Position numbers and translations under genes: made by a program | Source: a virus | Reading direction: 5' to 3' (one strand) | DNA: 21,671 nt | Virus record (IMG/VR): IMGVR_UViG_3300021559_000324 | Coordinates: 1 to 21,671 of that record | Notes under the pieces: model-generated | What the model was told of the DNA's origin: nothing | Databases searched by the model: none | Seen by the model: only the letters and a program-made list of their open reading frames with translations | Shown: one piece after another, positions 9,347 to 21,671 of the stretch | How the letters are laid out: each line of letters starts with the position of its first letter | How positions within the stretch are numbered: position 1 is the stretch's first letter

Positions 9347-11797
9347 ATGCCAGGACTCCAAATCATTATCACCAAGGCCGGCCGCGCCGCCCTGGTCAAT
9401 GCCGAACACAACGGCACGGCGCCGCTCAAAATATCTGCAATCGGCATTACTGCCGCCGTCTTTACAGCGAACGAAGACACGACGACCTTGCCAGGCGAGA
9501 TTAAACGGCTGACAACCATTTCCGGCGAAGTGGTCGCCGCCGATACGATCCACGTCACCATCCGCGACGATGGCATCGACACCTATGCAGTGCGAGGTAT
9601 CGGTTATTGGCTCAACAACGGCGTCTTGTTTGGCGTCTACAGCCAGCCAGATCCGATATTGCAAAAATCGACACAGTCGATGATGCTGCTGGCCGCTGAT
9701 GCCGTATTCACCACCGTCAAGGCCACGGCGCTGACCTTCGGCGATGCCAATTTCACGAACCCGCCGGCCACCGTAGACCGCCAGGGCGTGGTCGAACTGG
9801 CGACGCCGGCGGAAACCGTCGCCGGTACGGACGGCACCCGCGCCGTCACACCAGCGGGCCTTTCGCCGGCCATGGCGCAAGCCATCGCCAAACACCTGGC
9901 GGTAGTCGATCCGCATCAGCAATACCTGACGCCGGAACGCGGCAATGCTCTGTATTTCCGCAAGCTGCCGGCCTATACCGATAGTGATACCAATTGCGAC
10001 ACCTTGCTGGACACCGGCGTGCGCGATGTCTCTGTCGCCAATGATCGCGGCGTCATCGCCGCCACCAGACTGCCCATGGGCGCCGATGGCTATGGCACGT
10101 TGACCACCGAGAACGGCGGCCAGTTCGTGCACCAGGTCTATACAGAAGCCTCTATCCGACACCGTACCTGGCAGCGATCCGGCTATCTGGGCGCCGAACA
10201 ACCCTTTAAAGGCAGCGATTGGAAGCAGCTCTGGGACTCTGTGACGTTCGACCCCGCCTCCAAGCAAGACAAGCTCCCCTTTACGCCTGTCCAACAAGGC
10301 ACCGGCCATGGGCAGAAATGGAATGTCGTCAAAATCGGCTGGACTGGTGATGTTTTGAAAGTCACCGTCGATGACTACGATCTCGGTGCGGTTGTCTTTC
10401 AGGCCAATCTGGATGCTGCGCTGAAAAATTACTTGCCGCTGTCGGGTGGCCGCCTATCAGGAAAATTAACGGTGGTCGGCTCTGTTGGAAGCATTGCAAC
10501 CACCGGCGCAGAAACTCCTGCTATGGAAGTGTCTTCCGACGACGCAGTGACAAGCGACGCTTACATGACGTTTCGCCGTGCCGGTCGGTTTGCTGCGCAT
10601 TTTGGGCTGGATGCCAATAACGACTTTGCAGCCGGCGGCTATTCCATGGGGAACGTGTCTTATAAATTCTGGCACGCCGGTAATTTCAACCCTGCGGCCA
10701 AGCAGGATACGCTGGGCTACCGCCCTCCCCAGGCGGTCGGCACCTGGCTCAACAGTGTGACCGTTGCCGATAATCGTGCAACTAGTCCCGCACCGCAAGA
10801 CCGGGACATGGGCATCTATTTCGATTTTAAAAATAACGATGCTGGCGGTCTCAATGACGGCGGGGTTCAACATGGTGAAATCACCTTCCGACAATGGGGC
10901 GCAGGTGGCGACTTCTCCGGCGGTCCAACGCATCAACTCGGCTTTACTGCGAACGGGAATCTGCATCATCGGACTGGCAGCGCCGACAAATGGGCCGGCT
11001 GGCAGCGCTTCCTGACGCAGGGTCAGAACGGAACGCTGCCGGATAACGGCATGGTGATTATCAAGGATTGCAATAGCGCGCCGCTCGGTTGGGCCACCTA
11101 CACGCAGGAGGCAACTGCTAATCGCCCGAGCGCTTACGGTCAGCTCTTTACGTCATCGCTCACCGGAAATTCGCTAGGCACGAACGGCAATTGGCTCATG
11201 CAGCGCGCCCTGTCTACCGATAACCAAATTTACACGCGCGTCAATACGGGCGGTGGCGTATGGACCGCCTGGGCGCTGTGCTGGAGCAATAACAATTTTG
11301 ATCCTGGCAGCAAAGCAACAGGCAACGGCTATGTCATGAATTGGGCGGGCCAAGGCGGTCAGCCTACCTGGCTTCTGGGTGGTAACTACCCTAACGCCAT
11401 CAACGTCTACAACCCTGCCAACTTCAGCGTCAATTATGCCAATAGCGCCGGCACCGCCAGCAGCGCGGGAAATGCCGACAGGGTCGGCGGCGTGCCGATG
11501 CGATGGGCAGAAAACAATGGTGTGCAGCCTTACTACTTGTATGGCGTCGTTGCCGGCAACCAGGAGTTGACGTTGTTTACCCGTACCCAGGTGGCCGTTG
11601 GCTCCTGCGTCTCGGCGATGTATGCGAATCAGCTTTCCGGTCAGGGTCTGGGGCGCGGTGGTATCGGCAACTATGAATTGATCAAGAACAAGAGCACCAG
11701 CGGATTGCCTGGGGCATGGGAGCAACGCGGCCAGGTCTATGACTACGGGTCCGGTGCGAGTGAAGGTAATGAATCAAGTGCAGTGTTATGGCAACGG
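9347..11797 (+). pseudogene. H: Tail fibre protein, P2 gpH-like, 3' end lost at a deletion junction
   Basis: The first part (MPGLQIIITKAGRAALVNAE) is the standard N-terminal domain that attaches P2-type fibres to the baseplate. A fibre shaft and receptor-binding region with typical collagen-like or shufflon-like segments follow (YANSAGTASSAGNADRVGG). Near residue 817 the sequence reads DYGSGASEGNESSAVLWQR, which looks like the natural last few residues of such fibres. After that the frame runs into gene D sequence in the wrong frame and stops at 12064 (905 codons in total). So perhaps only a few native residues are missing, with about 88 foreign ones added. The fibre may still fold. The fibre-assembly gene G that should follow is absent. 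Confidence 0.85.
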
Positions 11798-12411
11798 GAG
11801 TGCGAGCGTTCTGGCACGACGTCAATTATGGTGGCCTACGCCGCAGCGTTGTTGCTGGCGTGCCTGGTAACACCAAGCGGCTGCGAACTACATACACCAG
11901 CGAGGCAGACGCGCGGACCGTCGCCGTCGCCGAATGGCAGCGCATTCAACGCGGCTTGGCATCATTCGAACTGTCGCTTGCTCTGGGTAATCCTGCGCTT
12001 ATACCTCAATCGCCGGTCAAGGTCTCGGGATTCAAGGTCTCCATCGATAATATGGATTGGCTGACCACCAAGGTCACGCATAGCATTAGCGACGCGGGCT
12101 ATACCTCACGCATTGAGATGGAGACGCGAACGGAGGAAGCAGAGGTAGAGCGTGAAGACGAGCTGGACCGCGACCCCGGCGTAACTGGTGTGATCGCCAA
12201 GTGGCGCGATATTATTTCAAATAAAACTGGCCGGGAACTGGAGCCAACGACAGGAACAGGGAAGCTTAGAAAGCCAGTAGCAGGCGCCGCGGCCAACCCA
12301 AAAACGCTGACCCATATTTATGCAAATCGGCAAACTGCCCAGCACGCTGCAAAAAGTGAATGGGCCAAAATCATTGAACGTAGAAACATAATAAGAGATA
12401 ACAGTGAGTAG
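11798..12411 (+). pseudogene. D: Late control protein gpD, C-terminal half only
   Basis: About 204 residues are clearly the C-terminal part of the P2 gpD family (full length about 390), starting VRAFWHDVNYGG. Typical segments are TYTSEADARTVAVAEWQRIQ, NPALIPQSPVKVSGFKV and MDWLTTKVTHSISDAGYTSR. gpD is the tail tip (hub) protein next to the spike. The N-terminal half is missing. An ATG at 11788 lies in frame but has no ribosome-binding site. The remnant contains two copies of an N-x-K-x-L-x3-Y-x5-A-x3-A-x2-EW motif (about 11869-11955 and 12295-12384), which I believe is normal for betaproteobacterial gpD. Confidence 0.87.
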
Positions 12412-13124: not shown

Positions 13125-13823
13125 TTAACGCATTCGATTTTTTTGTAAATCATCCCAGCGCGGCGTACCCGCAGTCTCACCAACAACGCACTCTCTTATC
13201 CCGACATTCAAAATCTTGGCAGTGCTTCCTACCGAGTAGGATTTTCCATCGTTGTGGCAAATGGTTTCAGTCGGTACTGCGGTTGCCTGCGGGATATCGG
13301 TCGGCATTTTATACAATAACCAACCGCAGCCAGCCGCTAACATCATTAGTCCCCCCGTTAATGCCAGCGCTGTCCATGTCAGTTTTTTATTGGCGCTGGC
13401 CTTTTCCGCGCAGGCGATACACGAAAGGGGTAGTTCAGGAATATTGGCGGCTGCAGGCATAGTCTCGATTTCCTCGATTTCGGGTGCCGACGTTCCGTTA
13501 GTTTCAGCCAGCGAATTATTGAGTAGCGCCATGACCGCTTTATAGCTCTCCAGCGGAACTTGTTCAATTCTTATCACACCGTGTTCGTTCTTGATGACGT
13601 TGTACACATCATGGATGCTCATGCCGCTGCTTGTCGCGACCTCTTTAACCTTTTCAAAAATTGCCTTGCGTTGCAATCCAGTTAGAAATTTTGGCGGCTG
13701 CGGCTCCGGTTCGACCGATGCCCCTCCGATGATCTGAACAATATTGCTAAGCCTGGGTGCTTCGTGAACGCTACCTACAACTGCTTGTGAAACATCACCG
13801 TGAAACGCTGTCTTTTCCGTCAT
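13125..13823 (-). CDS. Single-pass membrane protein sharing two blocks with the repressor
   Basis: This 232-residue protein has, in order: an FHG block (residues 7-20, FHGDVSQAVVGSVH), a helical block (50-107, LQRKAIFEKVKEVA then DVYNVI and YKAVMALL), a CxxC pair at 135/138, one membrane helix (147-171), and a 60-residue tail with C189 and C212. KK just before the helix predicts N-terminus inside and tail in the periplasm. The tail (GKSYSVGSTAKI, EC, PRW) resembles small DUF1496-type domains; that match is tentative. Both N-terminal blocks recur in the repressor in opposite order. It lies in the same operon. Function is unknown; a membrane-linked partner of the repressor is my inference. Confidence 0.78.
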   Translation of the reverse strand: MTEKTAFHGDVSQAVVGSVHEAPRLSNIVQIIGGASVEPEPQPPKFLTGLQRKAIFEKVKEVATSSGMSIHDVYNVIKNEHGVIRIEQVPLESYKAVMALLNNSLAETNGTSAPEIEEIETMPAAANIPELPLSCIACAEKASANKKLTWTALALTGGLMMLAAGCGWLLYKMPTDIPQATAVPTETICHNDGKSYSVGSTAKILNVGIRECVVGETAGTPRWDDLQKNRMR

Positions 13824-13879
13824 GCTAGCTACATCTCCAAAATGCTTTTTACTGATACCTGTAATTCTGATAGTCCAAC

Positions 13880-14689
13880 CTATTTCAATTTTTTTAGCGC
13901 GCTCTCAAATGCCTTTGCGGTATCAGGTCTTAGCCCACTATTTAATTGAGCGACGACTTTTCCATCCCTTGATCGATACAGATACGGTCCGGCAAGACTG
14001 ATCAAGGCATCGTAATAGGCATAAATTGCATCGCAATTTCTCTTAGTAGAACAGATGAAAATTTGTCCACCTTGGGGTGCAACTTCATCTATTGCAAACG
14101 CAATATTTTCGTCAAAGCTCTGTGGTTGAAGTGCGCCTGGCTTCCGCTCGAGGTAGTCGAATGCGTAGATTCCCGTATCCCCGTTGACCAACGCCGCCAG
14201 CACCGCAGAGCCGCGAGATGGCGCTTCATTGTTGGCAAAGGAGTCGGCTGTCTTCTTAACTCTGACCAATTGTTCAAAATCGATCCAATACGAGGGCGTG
14301 CCATCTAGCGGCGCTACGTTCGCCCAGCTATTTGTAAAGTCCACCTGGCGTATGTCTACTTTTTGATGATGTGCGGGTTGAAAATAATGAATGGACGCAT
14401 CCTCAAAGCTGTCGACCTTGGCTCTTTTCCTGAGCCTTTCCATTGTCCGTTCGCGACTGTCTCCCGGTTGGAAAATGCCTTCGCTCTCCAGAAATTTTGC
14501 TCTTAGATAAAAACGCACATAGTCACAAACCGCGAGACTGTCGCAGGCTATTGCTGGTTCGTCTTTTGGTGAGTAGGTAAGCGCGTGGCCCCGGTCGCAC
14601 GTGGATCGCGTACATGCGTCATCATCAGCAATGGACAGATGGCAGATACTTAAAAACAGCACACCGGCTGCAATGTTCTTATACGACAT
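13880..14689 (-). CDS. Exported cysteine-containing protein, unknown family
   Basis: This 269-residue protein has a clear signal peptide (MSYKNIAAGVLFLSICHLSI, likely cut after A21). The mature protein carries cysteines at 26, 31, 49 and 55 and a later CSTKRNC pair, consistent with periplasmic disulfides. The rest looks globular (YWIDFEQLVRV, GDTGIYAFDYLER, QIFICSTKRNC). I do not recognise a family. The ATG lies 8 bases after the repressor stop without a ribosome-binding site of its own, so translation is probably coupled to the repressor. Co-expression with the repressor suggests a lysogen envelope function such as superinfection exclusion; this is inference. Confidence 0.75.
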   Translation of the reverse strand: MSYKNIAAGVLFLSICHLSIADDDACTRSTCDRGHALTYSPKDEPAIACDSLAVCDYVRFYLRAKFLESEGIFQPGDSRERTMERLRKRAKVDSFEDASIHYFQPAHHQKVDIRQVDFTNSWANVAPLDGTPSYWIDFEQLVRVKKTADSFANNEAPSRGSAVLAALVNGDTGIYAFDYLERKPGALQPQSFDENIAFAIDEVAPQGGQIFICSTKRNCDAIYAYYDALISLAGPYLYRSRDGKVVAQLNSGLRPDTAKAFESALKKLK

Positions 14690-14697
14690 ATCAAAAA

Positions 14698-15363
14698 CTA
14701 CTTTTCTTCTTTGGCCTTTTTCTTGCCGGAGCCAAAAACATTTGTTTGTGGCGCAGTGATGTCGCCGGTAATTTGCTGAGTGACTTTTCCGTGAAACACA
14801 ACTGTCGCGCCGTCTTTCTGTTTAGTTGCTTTGTTTGAGGGTGCGTCGACTTCCGACAACGCTTGCTCGAGGAGAGCCATGACCGCTGAGTATTGATCGC
14901 GCGTCACGTTGGCGATGGATTCGACAGCAAGGTCCGCAAAAATAATTTGGTAGACATCAAGCGACTGCATGTTATTTGCACTAGCCACCAGATGAACCTT
15001 CGTTGCAATGGATTTCCGCTGCAGCATCGTAAGCTGCTGTGTTTCGGCGTTTTCGATGCCTTCAATCATGCCAAGCAAGCCCGCCTTTCCTCGAACATCT
15101 AAGCTGCGATAACTTAGCAACAGCTCTTTCTCATCGGGTGCGAGCGCCGGTGACGATTTCTCACCAGTTAAAACATATTGAACATCGCCACCGACATCAG
15201 CAAACGCCTTTAGCACATCTCCGCCGGGGGCGGCTTCGTTGCGTTCATAGCGCCCCCACATGCCGCCTCGAATCCCAATTTGACTGGCGATTTCGGTCTG
15301 CGTAAAGCCGAGCCGTATCCGCTCCTCTTGAAGACGATTCGAGCAAAGTTCATTAAAATGCAC
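14698..15363 (-). CDS. C: Prophage repressor, XRE-type, with C-terminal helical and FHG blocks
   Basis: A GTG start at 15363, with GGAA upstream, gives 221 residues; a longer ATG frame reaches 15414 but would run through the operator region. Residues 10-66 form a Cro/CI-type helix-turn-helix domain (RLQEERIRLGFTQTEIASQI ... WGRYERNEAAPGGDVLKAF ... VQYVLTG). Residues 114-171 are a helical block (LQRKSIATKVHLVA, DVYQII, YSAVMALLEQAL) that reminds me of ORF6C-type phage domains. Residues 189-203 hold an FHG block (VFHGKVTQQITGDIT), followed by a basic tail. It is transcribed away from the early genes and leads the lysogenic operon, so it is the probable immunity repressor. No LexA/CI-like peptidase domain is seen. 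Confidence 0.85.
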   Translation of the reverse strand: MHFNELCSNRLQEERIRLGFTQTEIASQIGIRGGMWGRYERNEAAPGGDVLKAFADVGGDVQYVLTGEKSSPALAPDEKELLLSYRSLDVRGKAGLLGMIEGIENAETQQLTMLQRKSIATKVHLVASANNMQSLDVYQIIFADLAVESIANVTRDQYSAVMALLEQALSEVDAPSNKATKQKDGATVVFHGKVTQQITGDITAPQTNVFGSGKKKAKEEK

Positions 15364-20699: not shown

Positions 20700-21671
20700 A
20701 TGCTGCCAGTTGGCTCATATTCCAATATCAAGTTTCATCTAACCGCTTCGCAACAAATTTCTTTGCTCAAAGAGCGGGGCATGGTTTTCACAGATGAAAT
20801 ATCCGCGCAAAAAACACTGTTAAACCTTGGCTACTATCGGTTTGCAGGCTATTTTTATTCTTTTCGCAAGACAAATCCTAGAGGGACGCCAGGGCGGCAA
20901 GACGAATTTCAGGCAGGAACAAGTTTTGCTATCGTGGAACAACTTGCCGAATTTGATCGTCTGCTCCGGCTAATGGTACTGGATGCAGCAGCCTGTATTG
21001 AGGTCGCAGTGCGTTGCGATATTGCTCATAGGCTGGGTGTGCAACATAGAATTGCACATGAACAACCTTCTTTGTTAGATGCCAAGTTTGGCGTTACGAT
21101 CGATCCAGTAACCGGCAGAACTGAGTATGCTGAATGGAGAGACAAATTAGCTGCCGCCGTACATCGCGCAAGAAGAGAAGACTTCGTTAAACACCACATC
21201 AATAAATATGGTGGGCGAATGCCAATCTGGACCATCATTGAGGTCTGGGATTTCGGATTGCTTTCAAGATTTTTTGCGGGAATGCAGTTCAAAGATCAGA
21301 CACACATTGCGCGTCGTTACGGCCTGCAACAAGGCCAACATCTAGCGTCCTGGCTTCGGTCAATCAATTTCGTTAGAAACGTGTCAGCGCACCATTCAAG
21401 ACTTTGGAACCGTAATATTGTTGAACGTCCCACCTTTCAGAAAACTCAACCTCACGAGCATTTACATCACTTGACACAGGATGTGCACGCACAAACGCGA
21501 GTATATGGATCGCTGTGTATTCTTAAGTCAATGCTAAGGGTAGCGTCGCCTGATAACAACTGGACAGAACGTCTTCGCGCACTATGCCAAACATTTCCAG
21601 TAAATCCGATAGTCAGTTTACAGGACGCTGGATTTCCTCCCGACTGGGAGCAAAAAACCATCTGGAATTAA
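20700..21671 (+). CDS. AbiD/AbiF-family (Abi_2) HEPN abortive-infection protein
   Basis: This 323-residue protein is a complete member of the Abi_2 family by pattern: ISLLKERGMVF near the N-terminus, then LLNLGYYRFAGYFYSFRK, EFDRLLRLMVLDAAACIEVA, MPIWTIIEVWDFGLLSRFF and the strongly diagnostic INFVRNVSAHHSRLWNRNI. The R226-N-x3-H231 motif is the predicted HEPN ribonuclease site. Such proteins stop phage growth by cleaving RNA when triggered. The gene is AT-richer than the early operon and ends at the last base of the window. Whether it lies inside the prophage or just beyond the attachment site cannot be decided here. Confidence 0.9.
   Translation: MLPVGSYSNIKFHLTASQQISLLKERGMVFTDEISAQKTLLNLGYYRFAGYFYSFRKTNPRGTPGRQDEFQAGTSFAIVEQLAEFDRLLRLMVLDAAACIEVAVRCDIAHRLGVQHRIAHEQPSLLDAKFGVTIDPVTGRTEYAEWRDKLAAAVHRARREDFVKHHINKYGGRMPIWTIIEVWDFGLLSRFFAGMQFKDQTHIARRYGLQQGQHLASWLRSINFVRNVSAHHSRLWNRNIVERPTFQKTQPHEHLHHLTQDVHAQTRVYGSLCILKSMLRVASPDNNWTERLRALCQTFPVNPIVSLQDAGFPPDWEQKTIWN

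Follow-up and report, generated by a model that had tools for sequence, protein, structure and literature searches.

Adjacent genes for a controller and a membrane-associated protein with a common short terminal motif are known from the BASS pairs of NLR and Bell proteins, whose motifs span 20–40 residues and, in the available text of two papers, lie at the N-terminus of one protein and at the C-terminus of the other (PMC7889193, PMC8086366). In lambda, the cI-rexA-rexB operon places a membrane protein on the repressor's own transcript in lysogens, and the Rex proteins contact CI (available text of PMC11077077); contact between a repressor and a membrane protein thus has a precedent. SaPI2 encodes Stl2, a mobile-element repressor with a higher-order assembly of its own (rings and filaments) that leaves its operator on binding the C-terminal domain of Sak. 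Here we describe a locus with likenesses to each of these systems in IMGVR_UViG_3300021559_000324, positions 1–21,671 ('the window' hereafter, meaning this whole stretch of 21,671 nucleotides). A Cro/C1-type repressor (R) and a single-pass membrane protein (M) encoded there carry the same motif, hereafter the FHG tag, at the C-terminus of R and the N-terminus of M.

The locus departs from each precedent. Unlike BASS, it lacks both NLR and Bell proteins; its controller is instead a phage helix-turn-helix (HTH) repressor, and Pfam, PHROGs and NCBIfam searches of R, M and their neighbours found no NB-ARC or NACHT ATPase. The R/M pair is therefore like BASS in its logic without being a member. The RHIM/BASS3 core tetrad, (I/V)-Q-(I/V/L)-G, is absent from the tag, which has Q at column 7 and G at column 11. 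Lambda RexB has four membrane helices as against one in M; Pfam, PHROGs and PADLOC searches gave no match to a RexA-like protein here, and the available text of PMC11077077 describes no tag common to RexB and CI. Stl2, unlike R, binds a soluble recombinase through loops and involves neither a membrane protein nor a shared tag; by analogy, Stl2–Sak offers a helpful example of a repressor controlled through assembly. The Burkholderia P2-like phages AP3, KS5 and Carl1 have a PHROG 6521 protein immediately after R and the same tag pair, though their repressors, unlike the window's, lack the helical block described below. The initial annotation knew of no pair of this kind from described P2-like phages; the order of R and then M proves to be annotated already in these three, whereas the shared tag goes unmentioned in the available text of the AP3 and KS5 papers. 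The papers searched, on amyloid tags in phage repressors and on membrane-tied repressors, yielded no comparable shared-tag wiring.

The R tag, FHGKVTQQITGDIT (14755..14796, minus strand; 37.8 bits with a position-specific scoring matrix, PSSM), is supported by the profile match to M heads and is followed by a C-terminal extension, APQTNVFGSGKKKAKEEK, which ends at 14701. The M tag, FHGDVSQAVVGSVH (13764..13805, minus strand; 37.5 bits), is supported by column conservation and stands just ahead of a second conserved strand-like stretch (L-S-N-I-V-Q-I). Across the family the tag follows the consensus F-x-G-x-V-x-Q-x-V-x-G-D-V, with 14 residues (about 25 with flanks) and columns in an alternating hydrophobic pattern. 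After the tag, R continues with a turn, then a short stretch resembling a strand, then a basic tail, and M with a turn and a conserved L-x-N-V-V-N-L-N stretch. BLASTP of the single R/M pair did not detect the motif. Comparing a profile of R tails with a profile of M heads in hhalign, we obtained a significant match (probability 95.7%, E 9.8e-9); 100 column-shuffled controls reached probabilities of at most 0.8%, as against 57% (E 1.5e-5) for the unshuffled profiles under the same options. Nothing else in the window, on either strand, scored above 8 bits with the PSSM.

Homology scans for relatives gave loci from IMG/VR and Herbaspirillum: M-family matches were present in 36 of the 392 sampled genomes of the Herbaspirillum family, and R homology supplied 80 loci, while a single-protein scan with the window's R gave no matches. 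In related P2-like prophages of beta-proteobacteria, the tag again lies at the R C-terminus and the M N-terminus. The tags that define the PSSM score 20–43 bits, as against a maximum of 12.5 bits for shuffled open reading frames (ORFs), and matches above that maximum in R/M loci are nearly all R C-termini or partner N-termini. Other matches in whole prophage records reach only 14.8–17.8 bits and comprise one match in a long ORF and a recurrent, possibly antisense ORF of 400–547 residues found in most of the records. Among 85 R-selected loci (28 non-redundant), a full M always stands beside a tagged R (27/27 loci; 10/10 non-redundant lineages). Five R lineages, from KL3, Mana, Menos, Milagro, Dobby and L165, have neither tag nor M; L107 is a further untagged R with a weak, probably spurious 13.8-bit match downstream. 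By these sequence comparisons, the FHG tag, and not the helical block, is the family trait and the conserved link.

Within a phage, the two tags resemble each other. Across 36 paired lineages below 80% identity, cognate R–M tag similarity exceeded non-cognate similarity (permutation p 2e-5), a value that, like those from the permutations of the same pairs below, serves as a guide, since the motif PSSM was used to select the pairs and the tests are not fully phylogenetic. The signal persisted on permutation within 15 clades (p 0.0016 by BLOSUM, 0.0004 by identity), and permutation within GC-matched blocks (p at most 0.0004) led us to reject base composition as its cause; an initial test, restricted to 12 lineages that had been retrieved by M homology alone, had given p 5e-6. 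Matching is significant at columns 1, 5, 7, 9 and 13, which form one face of a strand, and at columns 2, 8 and 10, and is not significant at columns 4, 6, 12 and 14. Examples include NIYGNI/NVFGNV in L161, GHQVNG/VHLVNG in L016, and GDF/GNF in L066 as against GDV/GNV in its relative L068. Cognate pairs use the same codon at shared residues about as often as non-cognate pairs do (39% vs 37%), so the matching reflects selection at the protein level, and we reject recent gene conversion as its source.

Sequence matching of this kind suggests that the repressor, while bound to DNA, makes a homotypic contact with M, an inner-membrane protein whose periplasmic domain carries two cysteines, and that the two sides of this contact co-evolve. 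The reading that we favour, to which we give somewhat less than an even chance, is that R and M co-assemble through their tags with a regulatory effect on lysogeny. The two tags would act as beta-type homotypic association tags, on proteins probably both expressed from one operon in the lysogen. Self-association of R tags would provide a higher-order assembly that other repressors obtain from a folded C-terminal domain, and the M tag, positioned on the cytoplasmic side of the inner membrane, would join or cap the R assemblies, thereby tethering or titrating R. If the periplasmic domain of M sensed a change, R could then be released from its operators or driven onto them. Lysogeny would thereby depend on the state of the envelope, and the switch that keeps the virus dormant may be in physical connection with the cell membrane. 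In AlphaFold2 (AF2) monomer models of R and M the tag is disordered, as expected if the motif orders only on assembly. The initial annotation had proposed a membrane-to-repressor pair sharing probable self-association modules: the sharing is conserved in relatives and matched within each phage, and the pairing fits the tags, with the FHG tag rather than the helical block as its general link.

Several observations weigh against co-assembly as the tag's function, beyond the incomplete phylogenetic control of the permutation tests. No tagged partner lies within reach of the tagged R in 7 of 22 non-redundant lineages; one large group of these has no M, and another has a short M composed of the membrane helix and the Cys domain. 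Six whole prophage records with a tagged R and no tagged M contained no convincing second tag, and short M proteins without a tag persist. We therefore reject a strict dependence of the R tag on M: the tag must also have a use inside R alone, probably self-assembly, and the outer domain of M a role that does not need R.

A signal from membrane to repressor is the direction we propose, and the data are also compatible with the reverse, in which R controls M and M is a prophage exclusion or abortive-infection protein of the membrane or periplasm. On the model of lambda Rex or of NLR–effector amyloid pairs, the tag would let R keep M inactive, or seed M assembly once R is displaced. We judge this alternative unlikely, though well worth considering. 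M occupies the operon position beside the repressor that rexAB occupies in lambda, where Rex products interact with CI by two-hybrid (available text of PMC11077077), and BASS motifs lie at the termini of a controller and an adjacently encoded membrane effector (available text of PMC7889193). PHROG 6521 is filed under moron/host takeover; of M, the short forms retain just the Cys domain and the membrane helix; and in L115, L170 and L083 the tagged partner is a membrane protein of another kind. Against it, M has no PADLOC match, crosses the membrane with a single helix and shows no fold known from pores or toxins, and full-length M conserves a cytoplasmic part for which an exclusion factor would have no obvious use.

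Alternatively, the tags may descend from one ancestral motif and build separate R–R and M–M oligomers that never meet, with their likeness within a phage reflecting shared history or composition. The existence of tagged R without tagged M fits this account, as do the shortness and simple composition of the motif. Independent evolution, even with a shared phylogeny, nevertheless predicts no pattern in which R is closest to its own M; the matching survives clade-wise and GC-wise permutation, and a full M never stands beside an untagged R. We consider separate oligomers improbable. That the two genes resemble each other by chance, or through a recent duplication or conversion of DNA between them, has next to no probability and is refuted for the tag by the profile match far above its shuffled controls, by the codon identities and by conservation over dozens of lineages, even though the helical block in the window's R does derive from an M-type block, for which an old duplication is the best account.

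To our knowledge, P2-type repressors are not cleaved by RecA. What induces P2-type prophages is a long-standing question, for which tag-mediated co-assembly of R and M would offer a concrete candidate wire. A 2021 review asks, in its available text, whether bacterial signalling amyloids exist outside NLR pathways (PMC7889193); by analogy, the R/M pair is a candidate for such non-NLR signalling, and one that brings its own specificity code. In addition, the matched tags provide natural variants for the study of cognate specificity in short homotypic motifs. A stronger version, in which the tag is a prion-like or amyloid motif outside NLR immunity – a co-evolving beta-assembly tag linking the lysogeny repressor of a temperate phage to an inner-membrane sensor, with repressor assemblies on DNA and receptor assemblies at the membrane serving as templates for one another – strikes us as quite doubtful.

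Some loci depart from the usual tag arrangement. In L083 (1043–2286), two consecutive membrane proteins have the common head FKG(P/T)VDNVAGRDI, and the upstream repressor ends in GEFAARDII, a possible divergent cognate tag. In L115 (3338–4309) and L089, a tagged repressor has as its neighbour another kind of protein, about 300 residues long with hydrophobic segments, that carries the tag at its head; a SLATT-type effector was suspected in L115 and not upheld, Pfam giving just a weak DUF389 match. In L168 (3109–4632), the first repressor is followed by another whose tag is different but related, and then by a protein that has a WYL domain and a membrane segment. Repressors in L093, L095–L101 and their relatives carry the tag THGKIGQNFVGNII without M, and varied genes occupy the slot, such as those for HNH-like and DUF4062 proteins.

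R (14698..15363, minus strand; 221 residues) starts with GTG at 15363, preceded by AAGGAA as a ribosome-binding site. It matches HTH_3 (E 6e-5) and PHROG transcriptional regulators, and its HTH DNA-binding domain spans 15193..15333 (minus strand; Pfam HTH_3), with AF2 helices at pLDDT >90. Only HTH families pass or approach the Pfam and NCBIfam cut-offs in R, and the S24 peptidase C-terminal domain is absent. M (13125..13823, minus strand; 232 residues) is supported by homologues and by a match of residues 5–231 to positions 3–242 of the 243 in the PHROG 6521 profile (E 8.4e-19). This profile, annotated as 'membrane protein', also matches R residues 103–181 (E 1e-10). R, a middle gene and M form an apparent operon on the minus strand, in which the initial annotation had correctly located M as the second gene downstream of R.

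That annotation had also recognized a helical block shared by the two proteins, in swapped order relative to the tag: helices and then FHG in R, FHG and then helices in M. Both the sharing (BLASTP, 44% identity over 66 residues, E 9e-12) and the swap hold, with the block at 14842..15033 in R and 13497..13685 in M (both minus strand). Its part in a general system does not: among the 36 paired lineages, M's block was seen in R in the window only, some M relatives lack it, and we reject it as a general link because neither short tagged M nor any other R seen contains it. Judged by the alignment, the block belongs to M and in R is an insertion peculiar to the window. The R copy scores best against the window's own M and next against the M blocks of L161 and L007, and we therefore regard it as an old, lineage-specific acquisition, one that would give this R a second surface shared with M. 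L043/L066 has a different insert at the same place, with a ribbon-helix-helix-like stretch discerned by eye. L085 (reverse complement 1019–1399) encodes, between R and a short M, a 126-residue hybrid with an M-type tag at its N-terminus and an R linker and R-type tag at its C-terminus. Rearrangement of this region thus recurs.

In the AF2 model of M, a confident three-helix domain (the helical block, residues 47–109, pLDDT ~97) is followed by a membrane helix and then by a small beta domain in the periplasm. The best VIA match of the three-helix domain was 8qe9_1A residues 139–204 (Z 9.0; 1.7 Å over 61 residues), from the complex of Stl2 with the Sak annealase, chain 1A being taken as Sak from the paper's chain naming. 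The next score was Z 6.3; after the Sak domain came the Red-beta C-terminal domain, and the structure search also gave viral ORF6C/repressor-domain proteins. The block had no sequence-level Pfam match to ORF6C or to the C-terminal domain of SSAP proteins, a PDB sequence search with M gave no convincing match, and Foldseek gave none below E 0.001. For a small helical domain, a Z of 9 makes kinship to the Sak domain only suggestive. The predicted fold may be that of the ORF6C, Red-beta and Sak C-terminal domains; unlike them, the block here has a tag on one side and a membrane helix on the other.

The remaining features of M, all on the minus strand, support the initially proposed membrane helix, N-in orientation and two conserved C-terminal cysteines, as judged from conservation and AF2. 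A cytoplasmic CxxC (13410..13421; both cysteines 84% conserved) immediately precedes the predicted membrane helix (13311..13370; residues 136–172 in the model), whose N-terminus is inside by the positive-inside rule. The predicted periplasmic beta domain (13143..13268; five strands, pLDDT 83–93), with C189, C212 and W223 94% conserved, persists in short M forms without a tag. DUF1496 scored 11.6 and 16.9 bits against this domain, under the cut-off of 20.2, and structure matches were weak and VWC/fibronectin-I-like.

The middle gene (13880..14689, minus strand) encodes 269 residues with a signal-peptide-like N-terminus, to which Pfam, PHROGs, NCBIfam and PADLOC searches assigned no family. Over its last third, the product shares 49% identity with a hypothetical protein from Pasteurella phage AFS-2018a. 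Other genes take its position in L006, L009 and L046, and the slot is empty in some relatives, so we regard it as cargo and not a core part; in other phages, different and often exported proteins fill it. Elsewhere in the window (9347–12411), the tail fibre gene joins directly onto the C-terminal part of gpD (phrog_52). The P2 genes usual between these two are not seen, and the record thus looks like a deleted prophage or a mis-join. At the end of the record, an ORF (20700–21671) matches phrog_2158, an abortive infection resistance protein (E 3e-51).
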